Shown in pieces: positions 177-47,175 of a stretch of 64,000 nt of DNA. Under the pieces are notes generated by a model. The model was not told where the DNA came from. It was given only the letters and a program-made list of their open reading frames with translations, and ran no database searches. This stretch comes from Solidesulfovibrio fructosivorans JJ] (GTDB lineage Bacteria; Desulfobacterota; Desulfovibrionia; Desulfovibrionales; Desulfovibrionaceae), in NCBI RefSeq assembly GCF_000179555.1, contig NZ_AECZ01000008.1, positions 62,001-126,000 of the forward strand, written 5' to 3'. Position numbers and translations under genes: made by a program. Each line of letters starts with the position of its first letter. Position 1 is the first letter of the stretch.

Positions 177-2507
177 ATGGCACAGCAAAGCGTTACCATA
201 CACGGCATCGAAAACGGCCACCGGGTGGATTCCCGCATCCTCGAGGAGCGCATCCAGCGGGCCGTGACCCAGGGAGCCCGCGAACTTCTCGTCGAGGCCG
301 ACGGCCAGCACGGCATCGGCGGCCGCCTTTTCGTCTCCCGCAACGAACCCATCACCGTGCGCGTCACCGGAGCCCCGGGCCAGCGCACCGGCTCCATGGG
401 CTTCCCGGGCACGAAAATCATCATCGACGCCCCGACCTCGGACGACGTGGGCTGGCTCAACGCCGGGGCCGAGATCGTAGTGCTCGGCAACGCCGGCAAC
501 GGCGCGGCCAACGGCATGGCCCAGGGCAAGGTCATGGTCGCCGGCAACCTTGGCGCGCGCGGCATGACCATGACCAAGCGCAACCCCAAGTACGCGGCCC
601 CGGAAATGTGGGTGCTTGGGAGCGTTGGCGACTATTTCGCCGAGTTCATGGCCGGCGGCACGGCCGTGGTCTGCGGCTTTGAGCCGCAAAACCCCGACAA
701 TATCCTTGGCTACCGGCCCTGCGTCGGCATGGTCGGCGGCCAGATCTTCTTCCGCGGCCCCTACAAGGGCTTCTCCCTGGCCGACGCCAAGCTCGCGCCC
801 ATCGACGACGCGGCCTACGCCTGGCTGACCGAAAACCTGCGCGCCTACCTCGACGCCATCGGCAAGCCGGAACTCTACGAGACCCTGGCCGTGCGCGAAG
901 AGTGGCAGCTTATCGCCGCCCGCACGCCGGTCGAAAAAACCGGCCGGGTCCGCCGCTCCATGGACGAATTCCGCGCCAACGTCTGGGATGCGGAACTCGG
1001 CAAGGGCGGACTCATCGGCGACCTGGACGACAGCGACAGAAGCCCCATCCCGCTGATCGTCAACGGCGAGCTGCGCCGGTTCGTCCCGGTCTGGGAAAAC
1101 AAGAAATACCTTTCGCCCTGCCAGGCCAGCTGCCCCACCGGCATTCCGGTCCAGAAGCGCTGGCAGCTCGTGCGCGACGGGCTCATGGACGAGGCCATGG
1201 ATCTGGCGCTGGCCTACACGCCCTTCCCGGCCACGGTCTGCGGCTACCTGTGCCCGAACCTGTGCATGCAGGGCTGCACGCGCAACATCGGCCACATGCT
1301 GCCCCTCGACACGGCCCTGCTCGGCAAGGCCAACGTCAAGGCCGGCCATCTGCCCAAGCTCCCGCCCCTTTCCGGCAAGCGGGTGGCCGTCATCGGCGGC
1401 GGCCCGGCCGGCATGTCCGTGGCCTGGCAATTGCGCCTGGCCGGCCATGACGCCGTGATCTACGACCCGGCCGAAAAGCTCGGCGGCAAGATTTCCGCCG
1501 CCATCCCCGCCAGCCGCATTCCCCAGGAGGTCCTGGAGGCCGAAATCAAACGCGCCCAGGAAGTCCTGCCCCATATCCGGTTCCACAAGGCCATCACGGG
1601 TGAGGAATTCGCCCAGATCGTGGCCGACTACGACTTCACGGTCCTGGCCGCCGGCGCCAGCATCCCGCGCATGCTGCCCGTTCCCGGCAAGGAGCTGGCC
1701 ACCCCGGCGCTCACCTTCCTCAAGGCCGCCAAAAAGGGCACGGCCAGGGTCGGCAAGACCGTGGTCATCATCGGCGCGGGCAACGTGGGCTGCGACGTGG
1801 CCACCGAGGCCGCGCGCCTGGGGGCCGAATCCGTCACCCTCATCGACATCCAGACCCCGGCCTCCTTTGGCAAGGAACGCAAGGACGCCGAGGCCGCGGG
1901 CGCCAAGTTCAAGTGGCCCTGCTTCACCAAGGAGATCACGTCCGAGGGCGTGACCTTGCAATCCGGCGAAGTGATCCCGGCCGACACCGTCATCCTGTCG
2001 GTCGGCGACGTGCCCGACATGGACATCCTCGACGGCACCATCGCCACCGAGCGCGGCCATGTGGTGGTCAACGACATCTACCAGACGAGCAACCCCAAGG
2101 TGTTCGCCATCGGCGACATCGTGCGGCCGGGGCTCCTCACCCAGGCCATCGGCATGGGCCGCGAGGCGGCCACCGCCATCATCGACATCTTCGCCGGCAA
2201 GCGCCCCCATACCGATACCCGCGAGCGCATCGACTACGACCGGGCCAAGCTCGAGTACTTCGATCCGCGCATCATGGAACTGGGCGACCTCAAGAGCTGC
2301 GCCAGCCAGTGTTCGTCCTGCGGCGCCTGCCGCGACTGTGGCGTCTGCACCATGATCTGCCCGACGGGCGCGATCTCGCGCAACCAGCTCGAAGACAAGG
2401 AATTCGAGATGGTCTCCGACCCCGCCAAGTGCATCGGCTGCGGCTTTTGCGCCAATGCCTGCCCCTGCGGCGTCTGGAGTCTGGTGGAGAATACGCCGCT
2501 GGTCTGA
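177..2507 (+). CDS. Glutamate synthase-like fusion: GXGXG domain + FAD/NAD(P) oxidoreductase + 2x[4Fe-4S] ferredoxin
   Basis: This 776-residue protein joins three modules. Residues 1-240 form a GXGXG beta-helix like the C-terminal domain of glutamate synthase GltB. Residues 305-375 hold a cysteine-rich Fe-S segment (C315, C319, C355, C359, C363, C367) as in the glutamate synthase small subunit and dihydropyrimidine dehydrogenase. Residues 402-660 carry two Rossmann motifs, GGGPAG near 407 and GAGNVG near 534, for FAD and NAD(P). Residues 708-765 contain two ferredoxin-type cysteine clusters. The likely role is electron delivery from NAD(P)H or ferredoxin for glutamate synthesis, together with the FMN-domain protein encoded just upstream. 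The ATG at 177 follows that gene by 50 bp, suggesting an operon. A strong terminator follows. A damaged copy of its 3' end lies at 4783-4941. Confidence 0.85.
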   Translation: MAQQSVTIHGIENGHRVDSRILEERIQRAVTQGARELLVEADGQHGIGGRLFVSRNEPITVRVTGAPGQRTGSMGFPGTKIIIDAPTSDDVGWLNAGAEIVVLGNAGNGAANGMAQGKVMVAGNLGARGMTMTKRNPKYAAPEMWVLGSVGDYFAEFMAGGTAVVCGFEPQNPDNILGYRPCVGMVGGQIFFRGPYKGFSLADAKLAPIDDAAYAWLTENLRAYLDAIGKPELYETLAVREEWQLIAARTPVEKTGRVRRSMDEFRANVWDAELGKGGLIGDLDDSDRSPIPLIVNGELRRFVPVWENKKYLSPCQASCPTGIPVQKRWQLVRDGLMDEAMDLALAYTPFPATVCGYLCPNLCMQGCTRNIGHMLPLDTALLGKANVKAGHLPKLPPLSGKRVAVIGGGPAGMSVAWQLRLAGHDAVIYDPAEKLGGKISAAIPASRIPQEVLEAEIKRAQEVLPHIRFHKAITGEEFAQIVADYDFTVLAAGASIPRMLPVPGKELATPALTFLKAAKKGTARVGKTVVIIGAGNVGCDVATEAARLGAESVTLIDIQTPASFGKERKDAEAAGAKFKWPCFTKEITSEGVTLQSGEVIPADTVILSVGDVPDMDILDGTIATERGHVVVNDIYQTSNPKVFAIGDIVRPGLLTQAIGMGREAATAIIDIFAGKRPHTDTRERIDYDRAKLEYFDPRIMELGDLKSCASQCSSCGACRDCGVCTMICPTGAISRNQLEDKEFEMVSDPAKCIGCGFCANACPCGVWSLVENTPLV

Positions 2508-2527
2508 CCCGGCATCCCGCGCAAATG

Positions 2528-2561
2528 AAAAGGGCCGTCTCATGCGAGGCGGCCCTTTTTT
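2528..2561 (+). terminator. Intrinsic terminator of the glutamate synthase fusion gene
   Basis: A 14-bp stem (AAAAGGGCCGTCTC against GAGGCGGCCCTTTT, one G-T pair) with a 4-base loop is followed by a T run. It starts 20 bp after the stop codon. A diverged second copy lies at 4964-4995. Confidence 0.85.
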
Positions 2562-2573
2562 ATCGGAAGCGCA

Positions 2574-2600
2574 TTGACACATACGCAAGGCAAATATAGT
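2574..2600 (+). promoter_or_regulatory. Candidate sigma-70 promoter of the pentapeptide-repeat gene
   Basis: A perfect -35 hexamer TTGACA (2574-2579) and a -10-like TATAGT (2595-2600) lie 66 bp before the chosen ATG. The 15-bp spacer is short, so the -10 choice is uncertain. The site directly follows the terminator of the preceding gene, so the islet gene appears to have its own promoter. Confidence 0.4.
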
Positions 2601-2665
2601 GGTGTAAATAGAACTCCAGTCCGTTGCCTGGAAAATCCCCGACGTTCGACGTCCGAGGAATCGCC

Positions 2666-4744
2666 ATGGCAGAGTGCAGCACAAAACATCTTGATGAACT
2701 CCGGGAAGCCATTCACCGCGATTCCGTTTTGATTTTCACGCATTTCTTGGCGTATCTCGCGATACTCATCTATTTTTTCATTGCCCTCCTCGGCACGAAC
2801 GACGAAGCCATCCTCCGCGAAACGGCTAAGGATATTCCATTTATCAACATTACGATTCCCTTTTTTTGGTTCTTCACCCTTGGCCCCTGTTTTATTGCGA
2901 TGATGCATATCAATCTCTTGATTAACTATTACTATATATCAAAGAAAACATATGGTTACAAAAAGTACCTGTCTTCGTTCAACTCGACGGAGCACCAGCA
3001 ACAACAACATCTTGATTTGTATTCATATTTTCTATTTACAAGTTTTATTATTGACACTGAGATGTCACCAATATTGAAAATGCTGATTCGAATTATTCTT
3101 TGGATCTTTAATATCATTTTCCCCTGGACAATCCTCTTTCTCTTCCAAGCGGTATCCCTTCCTTATCACAGCAATGTTTTCATAACCGTGCAAAGGCTCG
3201 CAATATTAATCGACGTAATCATAACATTGAGGCTCATACCAGATATAACGTCAGGTGTTTTTGGAAACTATCCAACGCTAAAGGAATGGAAGAAAAACAA
3301 AGGAGAATTCATCAAAAAAACATATGCCGTCCTAAAAAAAAGCATGGTAGTATTTTACTTAGGCATACTATTTATTATCTTAAGTACTTTCTTCCTGACA
3401 ATACAAGGCGAGTTTGTCGACCATTTCCGGAATGATATCTTAACATACATTGACAAGCGACTTAATGTATGCTCGAGCATACTGGACCCGATCACTTCAA
3501 TATTCATTGATAAAAAAGCAGCGGAATGTAAAACAGCTGGGACTAAATACAAACACAGTTCCAGCTTTATCACTTTTTTAGACACAATATCTCAAAGAAA
3601 TATCGATATTCAATATGCCATATTATCATTGCCGGATAAGAATGTGAATAAAATATTTCGGTGCCAAAATGAATATCCTGAAACCAATTGCGCAGACGAA
3701 ATAGCAAAACAAATCAACCAAAAGCATCTCGATCTTCGAGGAAGGAACTTGGAGAATTCGAATTTTAAGTTTTCATTACTTTCTTCTACACTTTTTATTG
3801 GGGCAAATCTTTCTGGATCAAATATGCAAAAAGCGCACGCGCAATATTCTTATTTCATTCACGCAAGACTAGAAAATGTTGACCTGAACAACGGATGCCT
3901 TAAACATGCAAACTTCAAAAGTGCAAATTTAAAAAATGTTAATCTAAAAAATGCGAATTTACAGTATGCGGATTTGACCGAAGCGAATTTAGAGGGAGCA
4001 AATCTTGAAGATGCCGACCTTCAAGGAGCAATTCTTGATGGAGCAAATCTTTGCGGAGCAAATCTTAGAAACAGCAAGCTTACAGGAGCAACACTAATTA
4101 ACACTGCACTTTATGGCGCAGACTTATTTAACGCGAATCTAGATATAACATATATCAAAAATTCTACATTTAATGGGAGTAATATTCAACTAACTTCATT
4201 TGAAGGATCACTTATTGACGATACACTTTTTGAACTTACAAATATAAAAAATGCAAGTTTTTATCTCGCAACAATTGAAGAATTAAACACCACTGGCAGC
4301 CATATAAATATGGAACAGCAATCCACCTGCTGCCCATGTAATAATAAATACATTAAAAACACAGACATAGATCAACAACAAATAAAAACAATAATTGCGA
4401 ACATACTCACGTCAATATCAGATTCGAAAAAAAAGGAACTTGTCGAACTAAGGCTCCAAGGGATACAAAGCGATATACAACGTGAAAACATCACTCTTTC
4501 TTTTAAAGGCCCATGCCGTAATGACCCTAAAAAATGTAAAAAGCTGACAGAGCTGCTGGATGCTATCCTCAAAGAGCACCCACGGGGAGAAAGATACATG
4601 ACAATACTTAGAGAAAAGTTAAAGAATTGCTGTGCAAACAGCGACATACTCTTGACCGAGCAGCCGTCAAGTTACCCATCTATTACATATCCTCCTCTTT
4701 TTTACTTCCCCATGTGTCCGGCAAATGGTGACCTCCAAAATTGA
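2666..4744 (+). CDS. Membrane-anchored pentapeptide-repeat protein
   Basis: The protein has 692 residues from the ATG at 2666, which has a GAGGA ribosome site 7 bases upstream; a longer TTG start at 2624 is open but poorly supported. The N-terminal third has about five hydrophobic segments (roughly residues 20-45, 60-90, 140-170, 180-205 and 230-250). The middle (about residues 360-520) contains tandem pentapeptides of the A(D/N)LXX type, for example NLKNANLQYADL and NLEGANLEDADL, which fold as a right-handed beta-helix. A cysteine-containing C-terminal region is not recognised. Pentapeptide proteins have varied roles, including effector scaffolds and DNA mimics that protect gyrase; the membrane domain argues for a scaffold or sensor at the inner membrane. 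The gene is strikingly AT-rich, rich in AAA, AAT and ATA codons, and bracketed by two copies of the preceding gene's end, so horizontal acquisition is likely. Confidence 0.8.
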   Translation: MAECSTKHLDELREAIHRDSVLIFTHFLAYLAILIYFFIALLGTNDEAILRETAKDIPFINITIPFFWFFTLGPCFIAMMHINLLINYYYISKKTYGYKKYLSSFNSTEHQQQQHLDLYSYFLFTSFIIDTEMSPILKMLIRIILWIFNIIFPWTILFLFQAVSLPYHSNVFITVQRLAILIDVIITLRLIPDITSGVFGNYPTLKEWKKNKGEFIKKTYAVLKKSMVVFYLGILFIILSTFFLTIQGEFVDHFRNDILTYIDKRLNVCSSILDPITSIFIDKKAAECKTAGTKYKHSSSFITFLDTISQRNIDIQYAILSLPDKNVNKIFRCQNEYPETNCADEIAKQINQKHLDLRGRNLENSNFKFSLLSSTLFIGANLSGSNMQKAHAQYSYFIHARLENVDLNNGCLKHANFKSANLKNVNLKNANLQYADLTEANLEGANLEDADLQGAILDGANLCGANLRNSKLTGATLINTALYGADLFNANLDITYIKNSTFNGSNIQLTSFEGSLIDDTLFELTNIKNASFYLATIEELNTTGSHINMEQQSTCCPCNNKYIKNTDIDQQQIKTIIANILTSISDSKKKELVELRLQGIQSDIQRENITLSFKGPCRNDPKKCKKLTELLDAILKEHPRGERYMTILREKLKNCCANSDILLTEQPSSYPSITYPPLFYFPMCPANGDLQN

Positions 4745-4782
4745 AACAAAGAATTTCCACACAACTGGAGTCTTTTTGCACG

Positions 4783-4941
4783 TCGCCCCATACTGAAACC
4801 CGCCAGTGCATCGACTTCGATCGGGCTAAGCTCAAGTACTTCGATCCGCGCATCATGGAACTGGGCGACCTCAACAGCTGCGCCAGCCAGTGTCCGTCCT
4901 GCGGCGTCCGGAGCCTGGTGGAGAATACGCCGCTGGCCTGA
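4783..4941 (+). pseudogene. Decayed duplicate of the 3' end of the glutamate synthase fusion gene
   Basis: This stretch matches positions 2205-2507. The reading frame PHT(E/D)TR...DRAKL(K/E)YFDPRIMELGDL is preserved with scattered, mostly synonymous changes. Compared with the intact gene, 147 bp (49 codons) are missing between two copies of CCTGCGGCG (2317-2325 and 2464-2472 in the intact copy). That removes most of the ferredoxin cysteines but keeps the frame and the last residues VENTPLA. No start codon or ribosome site suits a real gene. It is read here as a remnant left by the event that brought in the AT-rich gene, not as a functional protein. Confidence 0.85.
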
Positions 4942-4963
4942 CCCGGCTTCCCCCGCGCAAACG

Positions 4964-4995
4964 AAAAGGCCGTCTCGAGTGAGGCGGCTTTTTTT
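4964..4995 (+). terminator. Duplicate copy of the glutamate synthase terminator
   Basis: The stem AAAAGGCCGTCTC pairs imperfectly with GAGGCGGCTTTTT and is followed by a run of T. It is the diverged counterpart of the terminator at 2528-2561 and now ends the AT-rich islet. It probably still terminates transcription of the pentapeptide gene. Confidence 0.7.
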
Positions 4996-5131
4996 ATTGG
5001 CGCAGCGCCGCGCTTGGCGCGCGATTCCAGAAGAAAGGCGGGGGCGGCTGCGATAAGGCCGCCACCGCGCAAGTTGCTCTCATGTACCGAAAAAGCTAAA
5101 AAACGGCGTTCAATCAGAATGGAGTTCGCCC

Positions 5132-5743
5132 ATGGCAGACACGAACGCGGCTTCCCTTGTTGCCCGGTCCCTGGCCGCCGCCCTTGTGGATGACCCATTT
5201 TACCAGGCGATCAGTGTGGAAAGCGGCGACGATGCGTGCCTTATGAACCGGCTGACGCGCTATTTCGAGCATTCCATCACGGAAGGATGCGCAATCGGTG
5301 ATGTCGCCCGCGCCGGAGACATCGGCGCCGCCATCTGGATCACATCGCGCGATGCGTCCCTTCTGCATAAGGCACGCGACGAAAAACTCGCCGCCATCTC
5401 CGAGGTATTGGGCCCGGCAGGCTTTTCAAACTACCAAACCATCGTTGCCGCCATGGAGCGCAACCTTCCGACGGCCATCGACCCGGCCTGCTGGTATCTC
5501 TCGATCATCGGCGTCGCGCCGGACAGCCGCAGCCGGGGAATCGGCGGCGGCCTGCTGTCGCCCATGCTGCGCAAAGCCGACTCGCTGACGATGCCGTGCT
5601 TCCTGGAAACCTTCAATCCCCGCAGCATTCCTTTTTACCAACGCCTTGGCTTTGCCGTCATCGAGACCCTCGTCGAACCCCTGACAGGGGCCCCCTACCA
5701 AGTGATGCTGCGAACTCCCAGACAAGATCGCCTCGCCGCCTGA
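5132..5743 (+). CDS. GNAT-family N-acetyltransferase
   Basis: The 203-residue protein has the acetyl-CoA-binding motif A of GNAT enzymes: a beta-strand SIIGVAP at about 124-130, then R134-G-I-G-G-G at 134-140, leading into an alpha-helix. The segment SIPFYQRLGF at about 165-174 matches motif B. GNAT proteins transfer acetyl groups to amines on small molecules or proteins; the substrate cannot be told from the sequence. The ATG at 5132 is preceded by GGAG about 10 bases upstream. The gene sits between two AT-leaning segments but is itself high-GC, so it is probably native. Confidence 0.8.
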   Translation: MADTNAASLVARSLAAALVDDPFYQAISVESGDDACLMNRLTRYFEHSITEGCAIGDVARAGDIGAAIWITSRDASLLHKARDEKLAAISEVLGPAGFSNYQTIVAAMERNLPTAIDPACWYLSIIGVAPDSRSRGIGGGLLSPMLRKADSLTMPCFLETFNPRSIPFYQRLGFAVIETLVEPLTGAPYQVMLRTPRQDRLAA

Positions 5744-5811
5744 GAGCAACCGAATGCGCTTCACCGAGCGGCGTCTGGGGATCAATAGTATTCATCCCCT
5801 ATTCAAAGCGT

Positions 5812-6465
5812 ATGTCCCCGCTGCACCCCATTCCCCATACCTCCCCCGACAAAGCCTTGCGCCGTTGCACGCAGGCGCTCATTTTGACACTGTGCGTCGA
5901 AGGCATTTCCTGGCCATTTGACTCTTACGAATTCATAATATTTTCACATCTACCGCCCATACTCTATGACTGGTTGCCTTTTTTACTTTCCTTTACTGTA
6001 ATCTCCACGGAACTTTACAGCGTCTTCCTGCCAATCCGCTATTTTAGAAAAGCACGTTTTCGCTTACTCTACCAATTTTTCATTGTTCTCCTTGCCCATA
6101 GCATCATAAGCCACACCAACCCTTCCTTCACCAATATCCATTCCTACCACGCCTTCCGGAAAAACGAGCGTGAATATATCGCCAAATCGTACTGTTCCGG
6201 AAAGCTGCCCCTGGGGCGGGGCGATTGCGAACGCTACGTACGGTTGCCGCAAAAGTGGCAAGCGCTTTCGCTTATGAGCGACCATGTGGATATCGAATGC
6301 TACACCATGCGGCCGCAGGCGCTTTTCTACACGCGATGGGGATTTTTCAGTTACTGGGAAGCGCTTCTGTACCGGTTCGACGGCAGCTACCCCGACGATC
6401 CGCTCATTCTCAGATCATACAAGATAACGCGGCTCGACGACCATTGGTTCTATATCGTGCATTGA
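5812..6465 (+). CDS. Hypothetical membrane protein
   Basis: The frame can be read from 5596, but its first part overlaps the acetyltransferase gene in another frame; the ATG at 5812 is the first reasonable start and gives 217 residues. Three hydrophobic segments are visible at about residues 21-37, 50-75 and 84-98. A soluble C-terminal half follows, with three cysteines and many aromatic residues. No family is recognised. The ribosome site is weak. Base composition in the first 350 bp is clearly poorer in GC than the flanking genes, so this too may have been acquired. Confidence 0.5.
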   Translation: MSPLHPIPHTSPDKALRRCTQALILTLCVEGISWPFDSYEFIIFSHLPPILYDWLPFLLSFTVISTELYSVFLPIRYFRKARFRLLYQFFIVLLAHSIISHTNPSFTNIHSYHAFRKNEREYIAKSYCSGKLPLGRGDCERYVRLPQKWQALSLMSDHVDIECYTMRPQALFYTRWGFFSYWEALLYRFDGSYPDDPLILRSYKITRLDDHWFYIVH

Positions 6466-6508: not shown

Positions 6509-7426
6509 CTATGACGCGGCCCGGCGCAACCGAGGCCGCACGCGCCAGGTGGCGATCATGATGCCGCAGGCGATGCAGACGCCGCCGGCCACATGGAAGG
6601 GCGCGATGCGCTCGTTAAGCACGAGGGCCGCCTCCACGGCGGTAAAAAGCGGCAGGGAGTAATAGACGAGGCCGGCAAGCACCGGGCCTATGGCCGTAAT
6701 CGCCCTGGTCCAGAGGAGATAGGCGGCAAAGGAGCAACCTATGCCGACGTAGAGGACGCCGCCCGCCACCTTGGCGCTGACGGTCGGCACAGGCAGGAAG
6801 GCCATCTCCCAAACCAGCCCCGGCAGGGACAGCAAAAGCCCCCAGGTGAAGGTGGCGGCGTTAAATCCCTCGAGGGAGACATCCTCCGGCCGGTAACGCG
6901 TGCAAAAGGAATACACGCCGAAACAAACGACCCCGCCAAGGGCCCACAAATCGCCGGCGGCAACGTGCACCCGGGCGAGCGCCCGCCAGTCGCCCCGGGA
7001 GAACAGTATCAAGACGCCCAGCAGCACCACCAACACGCCGCCCAGCCGGCGGGGCGTTACGGGCTCCCCGTGGAAAATCCGGGACAGGATGATGATGGTG
7101 ATGGGGGCCGTGGGCACGAGCAGGGCCATGTTGAGGCTGGCCGTGGTCTGGGCGGCCTTGTAGACGAGGGTATTGAGCGCCGTGACGCCAAGGAGCCCCA
7201 TAAAGGCCATAGAGCGCCAGCTGCGGCGCATGCCGGGCCAGTCGGCCTTGAGCTTCGGCAGGGCCAGGGGCAGCAGGCAGACGAGCGCCACCAGCCAGCG
7301 CCAGAAATTGAGCGTGAACGGCGGGATGTCGTGGGCAATGCCCCGGGCGGCCACGAAATTGCCGGACCAGAGCACGGTCGCGCCAAGGGCGGCCAGAATG
7401 CCGACCGAACGGGGAGACACGGGCAT
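6509..7426 (-). CDS. DMT superfamily transporter (EamA type)
   Basis: The 305-residue protein has about ten hydrophobic helices arranged as two EamA repeats of five. The N-terminal signature LWSGNFVAARG and the second-half segment VGIGCSFAAYLLWTRAI are typical. EamA proteins export or import small metabolites such as amino acids, purines or sugars across the inner membrane; the substrate is unknown. The ATG at 7426 has GGGAAG six bases upstream and is preferred over the TTG at 7432. It lies 54 bp downstream of topA on the same strand. A 9-bp GC-only inverted repeat without a T run occupies that gap, so read-through from topA is possible. Confidence 0.85.
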   Translation of the reverse strand: MPVSPRSVGILAALGATVLWSGNFVAARGIAHDIPPFTLNFWRWLVALVCLLPLALPKLKADWPGMRRSWRSMAFMGLLGVTALNTLVYKAAQTTASLNMALLVPTAPITIIILSRIFHGEPVTPRRLGGVLVVLLGVLILFSRGDWRALARVHVAAGDLWALGGVVCFGVYSFCTRYRPEDVSLEGFNAATFTWGLLLSLPGLVWEMAFLPVPTVSAKVAGGVLYVGIGCSFAAYLLWTRAITAIGPVLAGLVYYSLPLFTAVEAALVLNERIAPFHVAGGVCIACGIMIATWRVRPRLRRAAS

Positions 7427-7480
7427 AGACAACTTCCCGTGCCGCCGCCTGGCAACCGGGCGGCGGCGCTGTCACAGGGC

Positions 7481-9745
<2,265 letters not shown>

Positions 9746-9862
9746 GGCAGGCGTGCTATAGCCACCCCAAGGTGGCAAGGCAAGGGTTGCCGTTTGTTTC
9801 CTTGCGGGCTACTCGTTATTTTTCGTTGCCGTCATATGACTTTTTAACAAATTAAACAGCGG

Positions 9863-41565: not shown

Positions 41566-41592
41566 TTCCTCCCCAATCGGGAGACATGACAC

Positions 41593-42357
41593 ATGGCGCA
41601 GGGGGAAGCGGCCACACTTGTCTGGTTGGTTTCGGGGCTTATGCGGTGCGCCAGGGGCACGGTAAACCCGCTGCGACGCACCAAGACGTATCTGCGCTCG
41701 CGCACTTGGTCGCACATGGCCTGGATCGGGGCGGATTCGCTGCCGATCATCAGCATCATTTCCGCCTGCGTCGGCATCATTCTGGCCCTGCAATCGGCCA
41801 CCCAGCTGGAAAAGGTCGGGGCCATGAGCTACGTGGCCAATCTGGTCGGCTATTCCATCATCACCGAACTCGGGCCGCTTCTCACCTGCCTCATCCTGGC
41901 CGGCCGGGCCGGCGCGGCCTTTACCGCCGAAATCGCCACCATGCGCATTTCCGAGGAGATCGACGCCCTGGAGGTCATGGGCGTGGACCCGGTGCGGTTT
42001 CTGGTCTGGCCGAAATTCGCGGCCATGTGCGTCATGGCCCCGCTGCTCACCCTGTGGGGGGACTGCATCGGCATATCGGCCGGCGGCATCTTTTCCGCCC
42101 TGGCCCTGGGGCTTTCCGGCAAGGCCTATTTTCTCCAGACCGCCGGATTTCTGACCATGCGCGACCTGCTCTCGGGGCTGGTCAAAAGCGCCGGCTTTGG
42201 CGTAACCATCACCATCATCTCCTGTTGGCAGGGATTTTTGGCCCGGGAGGGCGCGGCCGACGTCGGGCGGCGCACGACCCGGGCGGTGGTGCAATCCATC
42301 TTCCTCATGATCCTTTTGGATTTGTTTTTTACGGCCCTCAATTATATCTTCCGCTGA
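41593..42357 (+). CDS. mlaE: MlaE-like ABC transporter permease
   Basis: The 254-residue MlaE-family permease has five or six hydrophobic segments and the signature ADSLPIISIISACVG, GRAGAAFTAEIATM and EIDALEVMGVDP. Together with MlaF and MlaD it moves phospholipids between the envelope membranes. The ATG at 41593 follows GGGAG by about ten bases. Confidence 0.92.
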   Translation: MAQGEAATLVWLVSGLMRCARGTVNPLRRTKTYLRSRTWSHMAWIGADSLPIISIISACVGIILALQSATQLEKVGAMSYVANLVGYSIITELGPLLTCLILAGRAGAAFTAEIATMRISEEIDALEVMGVDPVRFLVWPKFAAMCVMAPLLTLWGDCIGISAGGIFSALALGLSGKAYFLQTAGFLTMRDLLSGLVKSAGFGVTITIISCWQGFLAREGAADVGRRTTRAVVQSIFLMILLDLFFTALNYIFR

Positions 42358-42372
42358 AACAAGGAGCGTTGC

Positions 42373-43215
42373 GTGGCGGGTCGCCTGGAATCGCCGGATA
42401 TCAGCTTGCAGGACGTCTGCGTCGGATACGGCGAGCGGGTGGTCCTCTCCGGGGTGGAAACCACCCTCCCCGGCGGGAAAATCAGCGTGATCCTCGGCGG
42501 CTCGGGCTGCGGCAAATCCACACTGTTGCGCAACATCATCGGGCTGGTGCCCATCCAGTCCGGGCGCATCGTCCTCGGCGGCCGCGACATGGCTGCAATG
42601 GACGCCGGTGAGCGGCTGGTCATGCGCCGGCACATGGGAGTGCTCTTTCAAGACGGGGCGCTCTTGGGCTCGTTGCGCCTGGGCGAGAATATCGCCCTGC
42701 CCCTGCGAGAACACACGGAACTCTCCGATTCGCTCATCGAGGAAGTGGTCGGGCTCAAGCTGCGGCTGGTGGGTCTGGGCGATTTCATGGCGTATTTCCC
42801 GAGCGAGCTTTCCGGCGGCATGCGCAAGCGGGCCGGACTGGCCCGGGCCATGGCCCTCGATCCGGCCGTGCTCTTGTGCGACGAACCGACGTCGGGTCTG
42901 GACCCCATTACGGCCGCCGATATGGACCAGCTCGTGCTCGAGCTCAAGGCCACTTTCGACATGACCATCGTGGTCGTGACCCACGACCTGGAAAGTCTTT
43001 ACGCCATTGCCGACCATGTGGTGGTGCTTGGCGACGGCCGGATGCTGTTCCAGGGGTCCCTGGCCGATCTGGCGTCCTGCGACGATCCGTTCATCATCCA
43101 GTTCCTGCGACGGATGCCGTCCCGGGAAAGCCGGATACTCGAAGAGCCCTGGGCCGACCTCGTGTCGCGCCGGCATGCCATGGCGGCTCCGCCCGCCGCG
43201 ACCGGGGGGAAATGA
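42373..43215 (+). CDS. mlaF: MlaF-like ABC transporter ATP-binding protein
   Basis: The 280-residue ATPase has Walker A GGSGCGKST (42-50), the LSGGM signature (146-150) and Walker B AVLLCDEPTSGLDP ending near 178. The GTG at 42373 has AAGGAG nearby. It is translationally coupled to mlaD by an ATGA overlap. Confidence 0.92.
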   Translation: MAGRLESPDISLQDVCVGYGERVVLSGVETTLPGGKISVILGGSGCGKSTLLRNIIGLVPIQSGRIVLGGRDMAAMDAGERLVMRRHMGVLFQDGALLGSLRLGENIALPLREHTELSDSLIEEVVGLKLRLVGLGDFMAYFPSELSGGMRKRAGLARAMALDPAVLLCDEPTSGLDPITAADMDQLVLELKATFDMTIVVVTHDLESLYAIADHVVVLGDGRMLFQGSLADLASCDDPFIIQFLRRMPSRESRILEEPWADLVSRRHAMAAPPAATGGK

Positions 43216-44120
43216 TGCTGTCTGCCAAGGCGAGTCGTTCGGATTACCTCAAGGCCTACGGAACGTTGCTGCTCGGTCTGTGCATCCTGGGCGCGTTTAT
43301 GGTGGTCCTTGGCGGGAACTGGTTCTGGGTCAAATACGACCACTACCTCATCCGGTTCACGTCGGTGAAGGACCTGAGCCCCGGCCGCACGGTCAAATAC
43401 GCCGGCCTGGACATCGGCCGGGTGGCGTCCATCGATCTCGACCCGACCGATCCGCACTACATCGCCGTGGAAATCGACATCAGGCAGGGATTTCCGCTTT
43501 ACACCGGGACCGTGGCCCGCATCGCCCAAAAGGGATTGGTGGGCGATTACTACGTGCTGCTCGATTTGCGCGGCGCGCCCGGGGAGCGTCTTGCGCCCGG
43601 AGGGACGATTCCTTCCCTTCCCACCATGGACCTGCAGGAGCTGGCGGCCAAGGCCGGTGATTTGCTCGATGACATCCGTCCGAAAATAAACGACATCGCC
43701 GACAACATCGACAAGCTCTTCAGCAAGGAAAATACCGAATCCCTGCGCCGGGCCCTGGAAAACACGCCCAAGCTGGTGGAGGATTTGCGCCGGGCGGCCA
43801 ACGATTTCCGGACCAATTGGGACAGGCTCTCGGCTAAGGGCGGCAAGGCGGCCGAGACGTTGGACGCGTCGCTAAGGCGCATGGCCAAGGCCGTGGCCTC
43901 CGTGGAAAAGGAACTGGTCAAGACGCTGCAAAACATCCAGCGCAAAACCGACGGCATCGGCGGACTGGTCACCGACGTGCGCCAGGGCTTCAATTACGAC
44001 CAGGAACAGCTGGAAGATATTCTCAAAAACCTCAACCGGACGAGTCGGGAAGTCAAAGACCTCATGGGCCGGCTGCGCGAGCGGCCCTGGGAGCTTATCC
44101 GGCCGCCAGCGGGCAGATGA
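43212..44120 (+). CDS. mlaD: MlaD/MCE-domain lipid transport protein
   Basis: The 302-residue periplasmic-facing protein has one N-terminal membrane helix (about 16-40) and an MCE domain (about 45-125) with GRTVKYAGLDIGRVASID. A long helical region follows, as in MCE proteins that form lipid-conducting tubes. The open frame extends upstream but overlaps mlaF; the start at 43212 shares bases with the mlaF stop. Confidence 0.9.
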   Translation: MMLSAKASRSDYLKAYGTLLLGLCILGAFMVVLGGNWFWVKYDHYLIRFTSVKDLSPGRTVKYAGLDIGRVASIDLDPTDPHYIAVEIDIRQGFPLYTGTVARIAQKGLVGDYYVLLDLRGAPGERLAPGGTIPSLPTMDLQELAAKAGDLLDDIRPKINDIADNIDKLFSKENTESLRRALENTPKLVEDLRRAANDFRTNWDRLSAKGGKAAETLDASLRRMAKAVASVEKELVKTLQNIQRKTDGIGGLVTDVRQGFNYDQEQLEDILKNLNRTSREVKDLMGRLRERPWELIRPPAGR

Positions 44121-44121
44121 T

Positions 44122-44760
44122 ATGAAGCGTTTTTCCCATGTCGCCGTTTGGATTGTTTTCAGCCTGATCCTGGCCGCGAGCCTTGCCGGATGTTTCGGCA
44201 AGCCGCCGCCGCCCCAGCAATACCTGCGGGTGGATCTGGGCCAAGGCCCCTGCCCCGGTTCCGCCAATGCCCAGCAGCGCCTGCCCCTCGGGATCAAGCC
44301 GCTCAAGGCCCTGGAGAACCTGGATCGCACCGCGGTCCTGACCGCCCACGACAATGTGCTGACCGCGAGCCTCCAGTACTACTGGGAAGGCGCGCCCCAG
44401 GACCTGGTGGGACAGGCCCTGCGCCACGGCATCGAATGCCAGTCCGCGAGCCTGACCCCGGTCGATTACCAGCCGCGCGTGACCCATGACGCGGTCCTGA
44501 CCGGCCAGCTCACCGCGTTCAACGTGGACGAAACCGATGGCGGCCGGTTCGTGGTGTCGATCCACCTTGACCTGTGGTCCCGGAATCTGGGAACGCGTAT
44601 TTCCAGCGGGGACTTCAACGCCTATGCGCCGCTGGACAATTTCAGCGGCGACGCCGTGGCCAATGCGGCCTCCGATGCCCTGGGCCGGATCGTGCCCAAG
44701 GTCGTGGCCTGGCTCGACGGCGGTCTGCCGCGCATCCAGAAATTCATGCGACAGCAATGA
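44122..44760 (+). CDS. ABC-type transport auxiliary lipoprotein (PqiC/MlaC-like context)
   Basis: The 212-residue protein has a lipoprotein signal with lipobox LAGC and matches the ABC transport auxiliary domain that works with MCE systems. Its start is one base after the mlaD stop region. It completes a STAS-permease-ATPase-MCE-lipoprotein set. Confidence 0.82.
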   Translation: MKRFSHVAVWIVFSLILAASLAGCFGKPPPPQQYLRVDLGQGPCPGSANAQQRLPLGIKPLKALENLDRTAVLTAHDNVLTASLQYYWEGAPQDLVGQALRHGIECQSASLTPVDYQPRVTHDAVLTGQLTAFNVDETDGGRFVVSIHLDLWSRNLGTRISSGDFNAYAPLDNFSGDAVANAASDALGRIVPKVVAWLDGGLPRIQKFMRQQ

Positions 44761-44772
44761 TGAGGTGACGCC

Positions 44773-45177
44773 ATGTTTTTGCAGGCCGTGAGCATCATCG
44801 CCGAGGAGCGCATTGCCGCGTCCATGCGCAATGGGGATTTCGAGAACCTCGAGGGCAAGGGCAAGAAGATCGTTTTCGAGGACGATTCCATGATCCCCGA
44901 GGACCTGCGCATGGCCTACAAGATCCTCAAAAACGCCGGTTATGTGCCCGAAGAGCTGACCCAGGAAAAAGAGATCATCACGGCCGCCGAGCTGCTTGCC
45001 GCCGCAACCGACGAGCAGGAACGCTACCGGCAGATGCAAAAGCTCAATTACTTGATCATGAAGGTCAATGCCCGCCGTCGCCGGCCGGTCAACCTGGAGC
45101 GGGACGCGGACTATTACCGCAGGGTGGTGGAACGCGTCACAGTCAGGGGTGCCGGTCGGGAAGCGCAAGACCGCTGA
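44773..45177 (+). CDS. DUF1992 (DnaJ-like) domain protein
   Basis: The 134-residue protein has the DUF1992 pattern AEERIAASMRNGDFENLEGKGKKI and MAYKILKNAGYVPEE. This domain occurs in small J-domain-related proteins of unknown function. Its last 35 bases overlap the convergent TetR gene. Confidence 0.85.
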   Translation: MFLQAVSIIAEERIAASMRNGDFENLEGKGKKIVFEDDSMIPEDLRMAYKILKNAGYVPEELTQEKEIITAAELLAAATDEQERYRQMQKLNYLIMKVNARRRRPVNLERDADYYRRVVERVTVRGAGREAQDR

Positions 45178-45766
45178 GCAGCAAGGCGCAGGCCGCGTCG
45201 CTGACGTCCTCGCCATCCGGGGCAAGGTCGCAATCCATCGACAATTGCCCCGCGATGGCCAAATCCGTCAGCCCATGGACCAGGGACCACACGGTCACGG
45301 CCAGGACATGGGGCGGTCCCTGGCGGAAAAAACCCGCTTCCTGGCCCCGTACGATGGACGCGACCAGCGAGTCGAAGGCCCCCTTCCCCGCTTCCCGCAA
45401 TTCCGGGTTCGAGTGGTCCAGCCGCGCGGCGTCGCCGAACATGAGCCGGTACATGGCCGGCCACGCGACGCCGAGGTCGATGTAGCATTTGCAAGACGCC
45501 AGGAATTGCCCCCGGGCGTCCAGGTTCGCATCGGCCGAGATATTGTCCAGCTTGTCATGCAGCCGGTCGAAACCGCGCGTCGCCAAAGCGGCCAGCAGGT
45601 CGGACTTGGAGGCGAAGTGCCGATATGGCGCGGCATGGCTCACGCCGGCCGTGCGGGCCAGGTCCCGCAGGCTGAGGCCCCCTCCTCCGTCCCGCTCCAG
45701 CAGCCGTTCGCCGGCATCGAGCAAAGCCTTCCGTAGATTGCCGTGGTGATAGGCGTCGTCATGCAT
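45143..45766 (-). CDS. TetR-family transcriptional regulator (WHG-type C-terminus)
   Basis: The 207-residue protein has an N-terminal helix-turn-helix LSLRDLARTAGVSHAAPYRHF and a C-terminal domain of the TetR_C/WHG type. It is divergent from the flavoprotein gene and likely represses it. The ATG at 45766 lacks a strong ribosome site; a frame to 46024 is open but overlaps the next gene. Confidence 0.88.
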   Translation of the reverse strand: MHDDAYHHGNLRKALLDAGERLLERDGGGGLSLRDLARTAGVSHAAPYRHFASKSDLLAALATRGFDRLHDKLDNISADANLDARGQFLASCKCYIDLGVAWPAMYRLMFGDAARLDHSNPELREAGKGAFDSLVASIVRGQEAGFFRQGPPHVLAVTVWSLVHGLTDLAIAGQLSMDCDLAPDGEDVSDAACALLLSGLALPDRHP

Positions 45767-45809
45767 GATGGGTCGTCGTGTTCCTTGTCCGGTATTGAAG
45801 CAAAAAATG

Positions 45810-45838
45810 TTGACGATGTCCACATGGGAAGTTACACA
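45810..45838 (+). promoter_or_regulatory. Candidate promoter of the flavoprotein gene
   Basis: TTGACG (45810-45815), a 17-bp spacer and TACACA (45833-45838) precede the flavoprotein start. The palindrome at 45840-45858 lies directly downstream. Confidence 0.5.
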
Positions 45839-45839
45839 G

Positions 45840-45858
45840 ATGTTGCCATTGCCAACAT
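45840..45858. promoter_or_regulatory. Candidate TetR operator
   Basis: ATGTTG-N7-CAACAT is a palindrome with perfect 6-base arms just downstream of the candidate promoter, in the gap between tetR and the divergent gene. Binding there would block initiation. Confidence 0.5.
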
Positions 45859-45882
45859 AGATCCACTCCGGGAGGAATCGGT

Positions 45883-47151
45883 ATGGCAAAAAAATGTTTG
45901 TTTTTTGACGGGCTCGGGCAGTCTGACGCGGCAAAAGACGTGTTTCGCGGCCTGTTGCGGGAAACGGCCCAAGAGGCCGGCTATGTCCTGGATGTGGTCG
46001 ATGTGGAACGTCTTTGCGTGTCACCCTGCAAGGGCTGCTTCGGCTGTTGGATCAAGACGCCCGGCCGGTGCCTGATCGACGACCCGTGCCGGGAGCTTGC
46101 CGGCCGGCTGATCGCGTCCGATGCGGTTGTCTTCGCCTCGCCCATTGTCTTTGGCGGATTGTCCGGACAGATGAAGACGGTCCTCGAGCGTTGCGTGCTC
46201 CCCACCCTGCTGCCGTTTTTCCGCAAGGTCGAGGGCCGTACGCGACATCCCCTGCGCTACGGCCGCAATCCCGACGTCATCAGCCTTGGCTGGTTGCCGC
46301 ACCGGGATGTCGAGCAGGAGCGCCTTTTTCAAGGGCTTTTGGATCGCAATGCGGCCAATCTGGGTTCTGCCCGCAAAGCGTCATGCGTTGTCCAGGCGGA
46401 TGCGACCCCGGAAACCTGGCGCGCGAAGCTCAAACAGGCCTTTTCCTTTGGCCAACGCCCCGCTCCCACCACGCGGCCCACAATCGTCATCTGCAACGGT
46501 TCGCCGAAACGCGCCGGCAGCGTTTCCGGCATGCTCGGCGGTTATCTGGCGAAATGCCTGTCCGACCGGGGCGCGCGAACGGAAACCGTGAGCCTCTTGG
46601 AAGCCGCCGAAAAGGCGGAGGTTTTCGATCGGCTCGTCACGCTGGTGGAGCAGGCGGACGGCGTTGCCCTTGCCTTTCCGCTCTACGGCGATTTTCTGCC
46701 GGGCCATGTGACGGCTGTCCTCAGCCAGCTGGCCGCGCTTGGCCCCGGAACCGCCGCCACCCGGCAAACCGGCTTTGTGGCCATCGCCAACTGCGGCTTT
46801 CCCGAAGCGCGCAATAACGACGCCGCCCTGGAAGGATGCCGACTGGCGGCGTCGCAACTGGGTTTCGCTTGGCTGGGCGGGGTGTCCGTCGGCGGAGGCG
46901 GATTCTATACGGGCCGGGAACTGGAAAAGCTCGGTTTCATGGGACGTCGCGCCCGGCAGGCCCTGGAGGAAAAAGCGGCGCTCCTCGTCGACGAGGCAAC
47001 CCAAAACGATCTGTCCAGCCCCAATATCCAGGTGCCCTGCCCCATGCCCGGCCGGCTCTATCTGCGCATCGCCGAGATGGGTTGGAAAAAGTCCCTCCGC
47101 ACGGGCGACAAAACCTCCGACCCCTACGCACGCCCGTATGAGAAGAGATGA
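45883..47151 (+). CDS. Iron-sulfur flavoprotein fused to a second flavodoxin-like domain
   Basis: The 422-residue protein has two flavodoxin-like halves. The first contains the compact cysteine motif C49-x2-C52-x2-C55-x7-C63, as in Isf-type iron-sulfur flavoproteins that bind a [4Fe-4S] cluster, and SPIVFGGLSGQMK. The second starts near residue 208 with VICNGSPKRAGS, an FMN-binding loop as in NADPH-dependent FMN reductases. It is probably a redox enzyme for oxygen or quinone-like stress, regulated by the adjacent TetR. The ATG follows GGGAGGA. Confidence 0.8.
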   Translation: MAKKCLFFDGLGQSDAAKDVFRGLLRETAQEAGYVLDVVDVERLCVSPCKGCFGCWIKTPGRCLIDDPCRELAGRLIASDAVVFASPIVFGGLSGQMKTVLERCVLPTLLPFFRKVEGRTRHPLRYGRNPDVISLGWLPHRDVEQERLFQGLLDRNAANLGSARKASCVVQADATPETWRAKLKQAFSFGQRPAPTTRPTIVICNGSPKRAGSVSGMLGGYLAKCLSDRGARTETVSLLEAAEKAEVFDRLVTLVEQADGVALAFPLYGDFLPGHVTAVLSQLAALGPGTAATRQTGFVAIANCGFPEARNNDAALEGCRLAASQLGFAWLGGVSVGGGGFYTGRELEKLGFMGRRARQALEEKAALLVDEATQNDLSSPNIQVPCPMPGRLYLRIAEMGWKKSLRTGDKTSDPYARPYEKR

Positions 47152-47175
47152 GAAAAGAGAAGAGGAAAAGAAATT

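Follow-up and report, generated by a model that had tools for sequence, protein, structure and literature searches.

Genomic islands whose integrases restore the end of the gene they enter carry that gene end on both sides of their cargo. A gene end on both sides of foreign DNA is also known from Escherichia coli conjugation with a plasmid bearing the 3' end of lacZ. There, 56 of 60 Lac- clones gave the diagnostic polymerase chain reaction (PCR) product, and 14 sequenced Lac- clones carried an unexpected duplication of 109-950 bp of the gene end that was ascribed to a single crossover, while one-sided homology combined with an illegitimate join was rare (PMC3240628). Further reports describe integrase-less hotspots with more recombination in the flanking core genes (2017, PMC5635113), core defense hotspots of Pseudomonas aeruginosa (PMC10250203), and merodiploids from transformation, in which the exchange itself can leave duplications (PMC3784515). 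Here, we describe a duplicated gene end in Solidesulfovibrio fructosivorans, in a stretch of 64,000 nucleotides (the window) from contig 8 of a draft genome that comprises 4.67 Mb in 75 contigs. The end and terminator of a glutamate-synthase-like fusion gene recur behind a foreign, AT-rich pentapeptide-repeat gene, at a spot that is near-empty or differently filled in related species. The features concerned are, by position in the window:

177..2507, plus strand: glutamate-synthase-like fusion gene, an intact open reading frame (ORF) of 776 aa that bears end copy 1 (Pfam PF01493, PF07992 and PF12838).
2205..2561, plus strand: end copy 1, i.e., codons 677-776, the stop codon and the terminator (direct repeats, alignment).
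2527..2560, plus strand: terminator hairpin of copy 1 (RNA folding, -26.2 kcal/mol, z -5.49).
2666..4744, plus strand: AT-rich gene for a pentapeptide-repeat protein of 692 aa (Pfam PF00805, E 9.7e-44).
4786..4995, plus strand: end copy 2, a 5'-truncated remnant with codons 677-716, a 147-bp deletion, the last codons, the stop codon and a terminator (repeats, alignment).
4963..4994, plus strand: terminator hairpin of copy 2 (RNA folding, -28.2 kcal/mol, z -5.14).

The end of the fusion gene recurs 2.58 kb downstream, with positions 2205-2561 found again at 4786-4995 in three direct repeats: 2205-2325/4786-4906 (121 nt, 92% identity), 2464-2522/4898-4956 (59 nt, 92% identity) and, within the terminator, 2529-2560/4964-4995 (32 nt, 81% identity). 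Both hairpins were detected by RNA folding and overlooked by a pattern scan for terminators. A joint alignment of the copies holds a single gap, of 147 bases and in copy 2; CCTGCGGCG occurs twice in copy 1 (2317, 2464) and once in copy 2 (4898). As the gap is bounded by these repeats, it shows the pattern expected of slippage between short direct repeats. The gene between the copies has 34-39% G+C (GC) content in 500-base bins, against about 67% in the fusion gene upstream. An earlier note on this DNA, made from the sequence alone, had reported the duplicated end and terminator (with copy 2 at 4783-4995), the AT-rich gene between the copies and the loss of 147 bp between CCTGCGGCG repeats, all of which we could confirm. 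It had also called the scattered changes in copy 2 synonymous, which does not hold: 10 codons differ between the copies in codons 677-716, and seven of these differences are residue replacements. A script comparison counted 15 mismatches over 171 positions. Five of the ten codon differences are assigned to copy 2 by the relatives (codons 680, 687, 690, 693 and 713) and three are not assignable to either copy in this way. Copy 2 looks like a remnant that is decaying without selection. Past the repeat, similarity on both flanks is no better than that of shuffles (194 and 172 of 300 shuffles equal or exceed it), and in a search of its own genome, copy 2 plus flanks hit itself and the fusion gene end, all other matches having E above 0.2. 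Copy 2 sits in an open frame of 66 codons (4741-4941), whose TTG start overlaps the stop codon of the pentapeptide gene and whose codon changes give no sign of selection to keep the frame.

Residues common to both copies are found in none of 13 relatives. As both copies carry these odd residues, the duplication would be younger than that divergence, and we rejected the idea that copy 2 is a displaced genus-typical end. Judged from their residues, both ends are of one odd type.

The window holds a Campbell-type layout of intact gene, insert, 5'-truncated homologous copy and native downstream DNA, the last being demonstrably common to the window and its nearest relative (G004) only from 5794. 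An intact gene followed by foreign DNA and a 5'-truncated end is the product expected of a single crossover with a circle holding the 3' end of the gene. Our favoured reading, to which we give about an even chance, is RecA-type recombination of incoming DNA carrying the 3' end of the gene, leaving the scar of a single crossover where cargo turns over. The islet would have entered on a DNA molecule from a close lineage that also bore the last ~360 bp of the same gene and the terminator. RecA-type recombination in the shared end, through a single crossover of a circular or recircularised molecule, could then have produced the intact gene with its terminator, the cargo, the 5'-truncated end copy and, behind it, older neighbours (an acetyltransferase and a small membrane protein gene); a near alternative would be homology at one side and an illegitimate join at the other. 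Copy 2 would subsequently have decayed, with replacements piling up and 147 bp being lost between the 9-bp repeats. The E. coli conjugation scar is alike in that a full-length gene is followed by foreign DNA and then by a partial gene end, and unlike in that it stems from a laboratory plasmid, whereas the present case is natural, decayed and of a mechanism that we infer (PMC3240628).

We compared the spot among 14 Solidesulfovibrio genomes, i.e., that of the window and 13 others (G001-G013), in stretches that measure ~22 kb in some relatives, 1.6 kb in G010 and 191 bp in G013. The downstream DNA was compared pairwise up to 2.5 kb behind the terminator for the window and 12 relatives, G013 being excluded as too short. 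Orthologues of the fusion gene, whose product combines a GXGXG domain, an FAD/NAD(P) oxidoreductase and 4Fe-4S motifs, occur in 12 other genomes of the genus with 80-89% protein identity over 775-776 residues, and G002 has a partial one; the 100-170 bases 5' of the gene are conserved in the 12 relatives for which this sequence was compared. With at most six substitutions, GGGCCGTCTCGGAAGAGGCGGCCCG lies shortly 3' of the stop codon in 12 of the 14 genomes and more distantly in G001, and within this limit it was not found behind the gene in G003. REP-like (repetitive extragenic palindromic) repeats, CGCCTTCGGCGACCAGGAGGGGC...GCCCCTCCTGG with variants, were seen by eye between stop codon and terminator in G001, G002, G004, G010 and G011. 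In G004, the gene end is single, and 157 bp stand where the window has 2504-5793. The earlier note had named the pentapeptide gene as the foreign DNA; what is absent from G004 is the whole of 2504-5793. To the right of copy 2 lie:

5132..5743, plus strand: gene for a GNAT-family acetyltransferase, the second cargo layer (Pfam PF00583, E 1.2e-07).
5812..6465, plus strand: gene for a small hydrophobic protein, the oldest layer (tblastn, 76% identity to G004).
6509..7432, minus strand: gene for a putative EamA-like transporter (named from its sequence), a right-hand neighbour common to G004 and G011.
7481..9778, minus strand: right-hand neighbour gene, presumably topA for DNA topoisomerase I (likewise named from its sequence).

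The spot is near-empty in G002, G011 and G012 and filled with differing cargo elsewhere. Window and G008 match no other genome directly behind the terminator. DNA near the start of the G002 downstream region resumes about 0.8 kb into G003, 0.6 kb into G010 and 1.2 kb into G001; that of G012 resumes 1.2 kb into G009 and 2.1 kb into G005, and that of G011 resumes 0.7 kb into G004. The first cargo is shared only by G005 and G009 (97% identity over 844 bp). Different gene content lies between the same conserved neighbours, of which both, the fusion gene and topA, were seen in 7 of the 14 genomes at a distance of about 1.3 to 9.6 kb; in the others, topA is not within the stretch compared, which is as little as 0.2 kb long, and G001, G002, G003 and G010 share another right-hand neighbourhood. 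Restriction- or defence-like cargo of three kinds is present in four of the 14 genomes: an Mrr-type endonuclease in G005 and, by DNA identity, G009, an XRE/IrrE-type protein with a strong RmrA match in G006 (E 6.4e-68), and a GmrSD-type protein with an NsnA match (E 1.5e-63) beside a HEPN protein in G007. Other cargo includes a sulfatase in G008, an acetyltransferase encoded by DNA common to G005, G009 and G012, and, in G003, proteins with weak collagen-like and carbohydrate-binding matches; two scanned proteins had no match. These assignments come from nine proteins of relatives scanned by Pfam, seven of them also by PADLOC, out of 106 listed ORFs, many of which are conserved neighbours and not cargo; the list is rough, as the ORF caller overlooked the acetyltransferase gene of the window itself. 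Across these genomes, the DNA beside the terminator is, as far as sequence can tell, a permissive variable spot in Solidesulfovibrio with cargo turnover and without a visible integrase.

Like the integrase-less hotspots of the 2017 report, the spot combines cargo turnover between conserved genes, no recognisable mobile element in the window and signs of divergence in the flanking gene, whereas those hotspots rest on many strains per species and ours on 14 species-level genomes of one genus, one of which bears a partial gene duplication as a scar (PMC5635113). In the hotspots of P. aeruginosa, defence genes are likewise exchanged while the core genes on either side stay the same, and in many cases no mobile gene is detected nearby; ours is a small spot (about 1.3 to 9.6 kb), with clear defence-like cargo in only 4 of 14 genomes (PMC10250203). 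Our knowledge of recombination hotspots is unchanged by the present case. What it offers is a readable scar showing how one small foreign gene may be added after a metabolic gene with no integrase involved, in a place where restriction genes and others resembling defence genes are exchanged among related species.

The earlier note had asked whether relatives have a single gene end without the islet or different cargo at the same place, as would mark a reusable insertion site, and both were found. The spot can be called reusable only loosely, as a place of turnover and not as an attachment site, and site-specific integration is unlikely. No integrase or transposase was detected among the three window proteins and the nine proteins of relatives scanned by Pfam; two ORFs in the cargo of G005 resemble transposase pieces by eye. 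From the gene end to the neighbour that G004 also has, there are only the pentapeptide gene, the end remnant and the acetyltransferase gene, and no integrase gene. The insertion points differ, lying between gene and terminator in G001 and G003 and 3' of the terminator in other genomes; in G010, the shared downstream DNA resumes ~50 bp past the terminator (by eye). In G001, the genus-type terminator stands 3' of the cargo gene, not 5' of it. In G003, the terminator at the gene is of another type, and one of the genus type, now decayed, lies where the cargo ends, ~0.87 kb past the gene stop (19 of 26 positions, as good in 0 of 300 shuffles); with adjoining bases, a 68-base alignment of the latter scores 12, the best of 500 shuffles reaching -6. 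There is thus no single insertion sequence.

An integrative element that brought a replacement gene end site-specifically and has since lost its integrase would account for the cargo turnover at the spot, and integrase islands at gene ends show the same order of intact end, cargo and displaced end. The lack of an integrase among the scanned proteins and the varying insertion points make this origin highly improbable, as does the length of the repeat, the usual integrase core being much shorter. Compared with integrase islands that restore a gene end, the window is alike in having a gene end at both sides of the cargo and unlike in that no integrase is seen, no insertion point is fixed and the arrangement occurs in one of 14 genomes. 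The earlier note had proposed an element carrying a replacement end or, alternatively, recombination with a related strain. Of the former, the resemblance of copy 2 to a displaced, decaying end stood; the site-specific element did not, given the missing integrase, the varying insertion points and the absence of a second gene fragment from the 13 other genomes over the stretches compared (191 bp in G013). The latter fits better than an integrative element, both ends being of one odd type. A tandem duplication of the gene end, followed by insertion of the pentapeptide gene between the copies by an unrelated route, would likewise agree with both copies being of one type, but it needs two independent events. 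A duplicated end without cargo, which the earlier note had named as evidence against an insertion, was not seen in the stretches compared from the 13 relatives. We consider this two-step origin unlikely.

A stronger competitor, though still rather doubtful, is that an unsampled lineage supplied the whole block at ~2.0 to 6.3 kb in its finished arrangement, the duplication being older and having arisen in the donor. Import of such a block by double homologous recombination, in the fusion gene and in the small membrane-protein gene, would account for diverged flanks at both sides. Compared with G004, 50 of 331 fourfold sites differ in codons 1-610 of the fusion gene and 21 of 68 in codons 611-776 (Fisher p 0.005). 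In the first 162 codons of the small hydrophobic protein gene, 18 of 51 fourfold sites differ, against 174 of 1069 in codons 1-610 of the fusion gene plus the three next genes (p 0.002). Half of the 24 private residues of the window's fusion gene fall in codons 616-740, i.e., in the last 161 of 776 codons, and the window branch in the tree measures 0.18 in the 3' part and 0.069 in the 5' part. However, we placed the boundaries at codons 610 and 162 with the data already in view, which makes both p values flattering, and an excess at codons 611-776 with p below 0.01 was obtained for one of 78 genome pairs, so that it may be chance, although window and G004 are the natural pair to ask. The gain of the private-residue change point at codon 615 was reached by 14 of 500 permutations, the pairing of window and G004 in the 3' part was not rejected by the topology test (approximately unbiased p, p-AU, 0.18), and 10 of 146 blocks of 300 bp have at most 82% identity, the block at 2101 among them. 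Five of the 12 private 3' residues have no counterpart in up to 19 outgroup rows, a finding also compatible with faster evolution; at residues 650 and 679, more outgroup rows agree with the window than with the genus. The diverged 3' end and right flank hint at import, short of proof. The data do not support a sampled genus of the family as the source of an imported 3' end, the best matches among 288 genomes being the genus itself.

Several observations weigh against the single crossover that we favour. The raised divergence starts near codon 615, upstream of the repeat, and is also present to the right of the islet, neither of which a single crossover acting only from codon 677 onward would explain. 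Among 288 genomes of the family, the best protein matches to the odd 3' end come from within the genus (at most 84%), and no donor was found. At codons 683 and 706, the copy-2 codon is present in one and two of the 13 relatives, respectively, so copy 1 must have changed too. The second gene fragment occurs in one genome only, which leaves a single event to judge, and, judged from sequence, an integrase may since have been lost.

More broadly, cargo exchange in the genus might carry a replacement gene end or terminator, with the old end being displaced and decaying. Two cases can be cited, the window with its gene fragment and G003 with its different terminator and the far genus-type one; we doubt that this is a general rule. 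If it were true, integrase-free end replacement beside the terminator would offer small islets a general route into operon ends that leaves these unharmed, and such islets would perhaps include a new membrane pentapeptide defence protein.

The pentapeptide protein has a hydrophobic and probably membrane-spanning first half and a C-terminal pentapeptide-repeat region; a single-sequence structure model shows helices followed by strands, at a low-confidence mean predicted local distance difference test (pLDDT) score of 42.8. Within the genus, the first half has just one distant relative, in G013, and three of 394 other genomes drawn evenly from the phylum encode relatives sharing it (E 0.001). 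The G013 relative, on contig 36, has an in-frame stop and adjoins a transposase-like ORF (by eye). Mesorhizobium plasmid pOM4 encodes another distant relative that shares the first half, beside genes for caspase-family, phospholipase-D-like and trypsin-like peptidase proteins, a set that, we presume, is reminiscent of conflict systems. Two other relatives lack neighbours of these types (by eye); together with the in-frame stop in G013, this keeps any function deduced from neighbourhood weak. PADLOC gave no match for the pentapeptide protein or the acetyltransferase of the window, and nothing relevant turned up in literature listings on membrane pentapeptide defence proteins or on this organism and the fusion gene. 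A role of the pentapeptide protein or other cargo in phage defence, as suggested by company and location, is tentatively possible, and we flag the membrane pentapeptide protein as a candidate.

A phage search returned one 72-base match, in a pentapeptide protein, and the plasmid matches were distant pentapeptide proteins (top row 24% identity over 64% of the query). Nine stretches of viral contigs matched a search pattern, and none of them encodes a relative. On these sparse and distant matches, we rejected carriage of the islet by a phage or plasmid. An inverted pair of 8 bases, ACTCCAGT/ACTGGAGT, was noticed by eye near 2613 and 4764 and discounted as inverted ends of the islet for being too short.

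The acetyltransferase has no close relative in the genus (weak matches in one of 13 other genomes, best E 5.7e-4). The small hydrophobic protein has no Pfam match above the cut-off and shares 26% identity with a G001 protein, and its gene is the first one 3' of the terminator in G004. From old to new, and toward the fusion gene, we infer that the small protein gene, the acetyltransferase gene and the pentapeptide islet were laid down in this order. Compared with the more distant G011, the spot is one of nine gaps listed over ~63 kb and the second largest on the window side; compared with G004, it is one of two gaps above 300 bp in about 47 kb. The other gap, at 41572-47161, spans 5.6 kb in the window and 10.0 kb in G004, and contains what, by eye, would be an ABC-type (MlaE/MlaF-like) set with a TetR-like and a flavodoxin-like protein.

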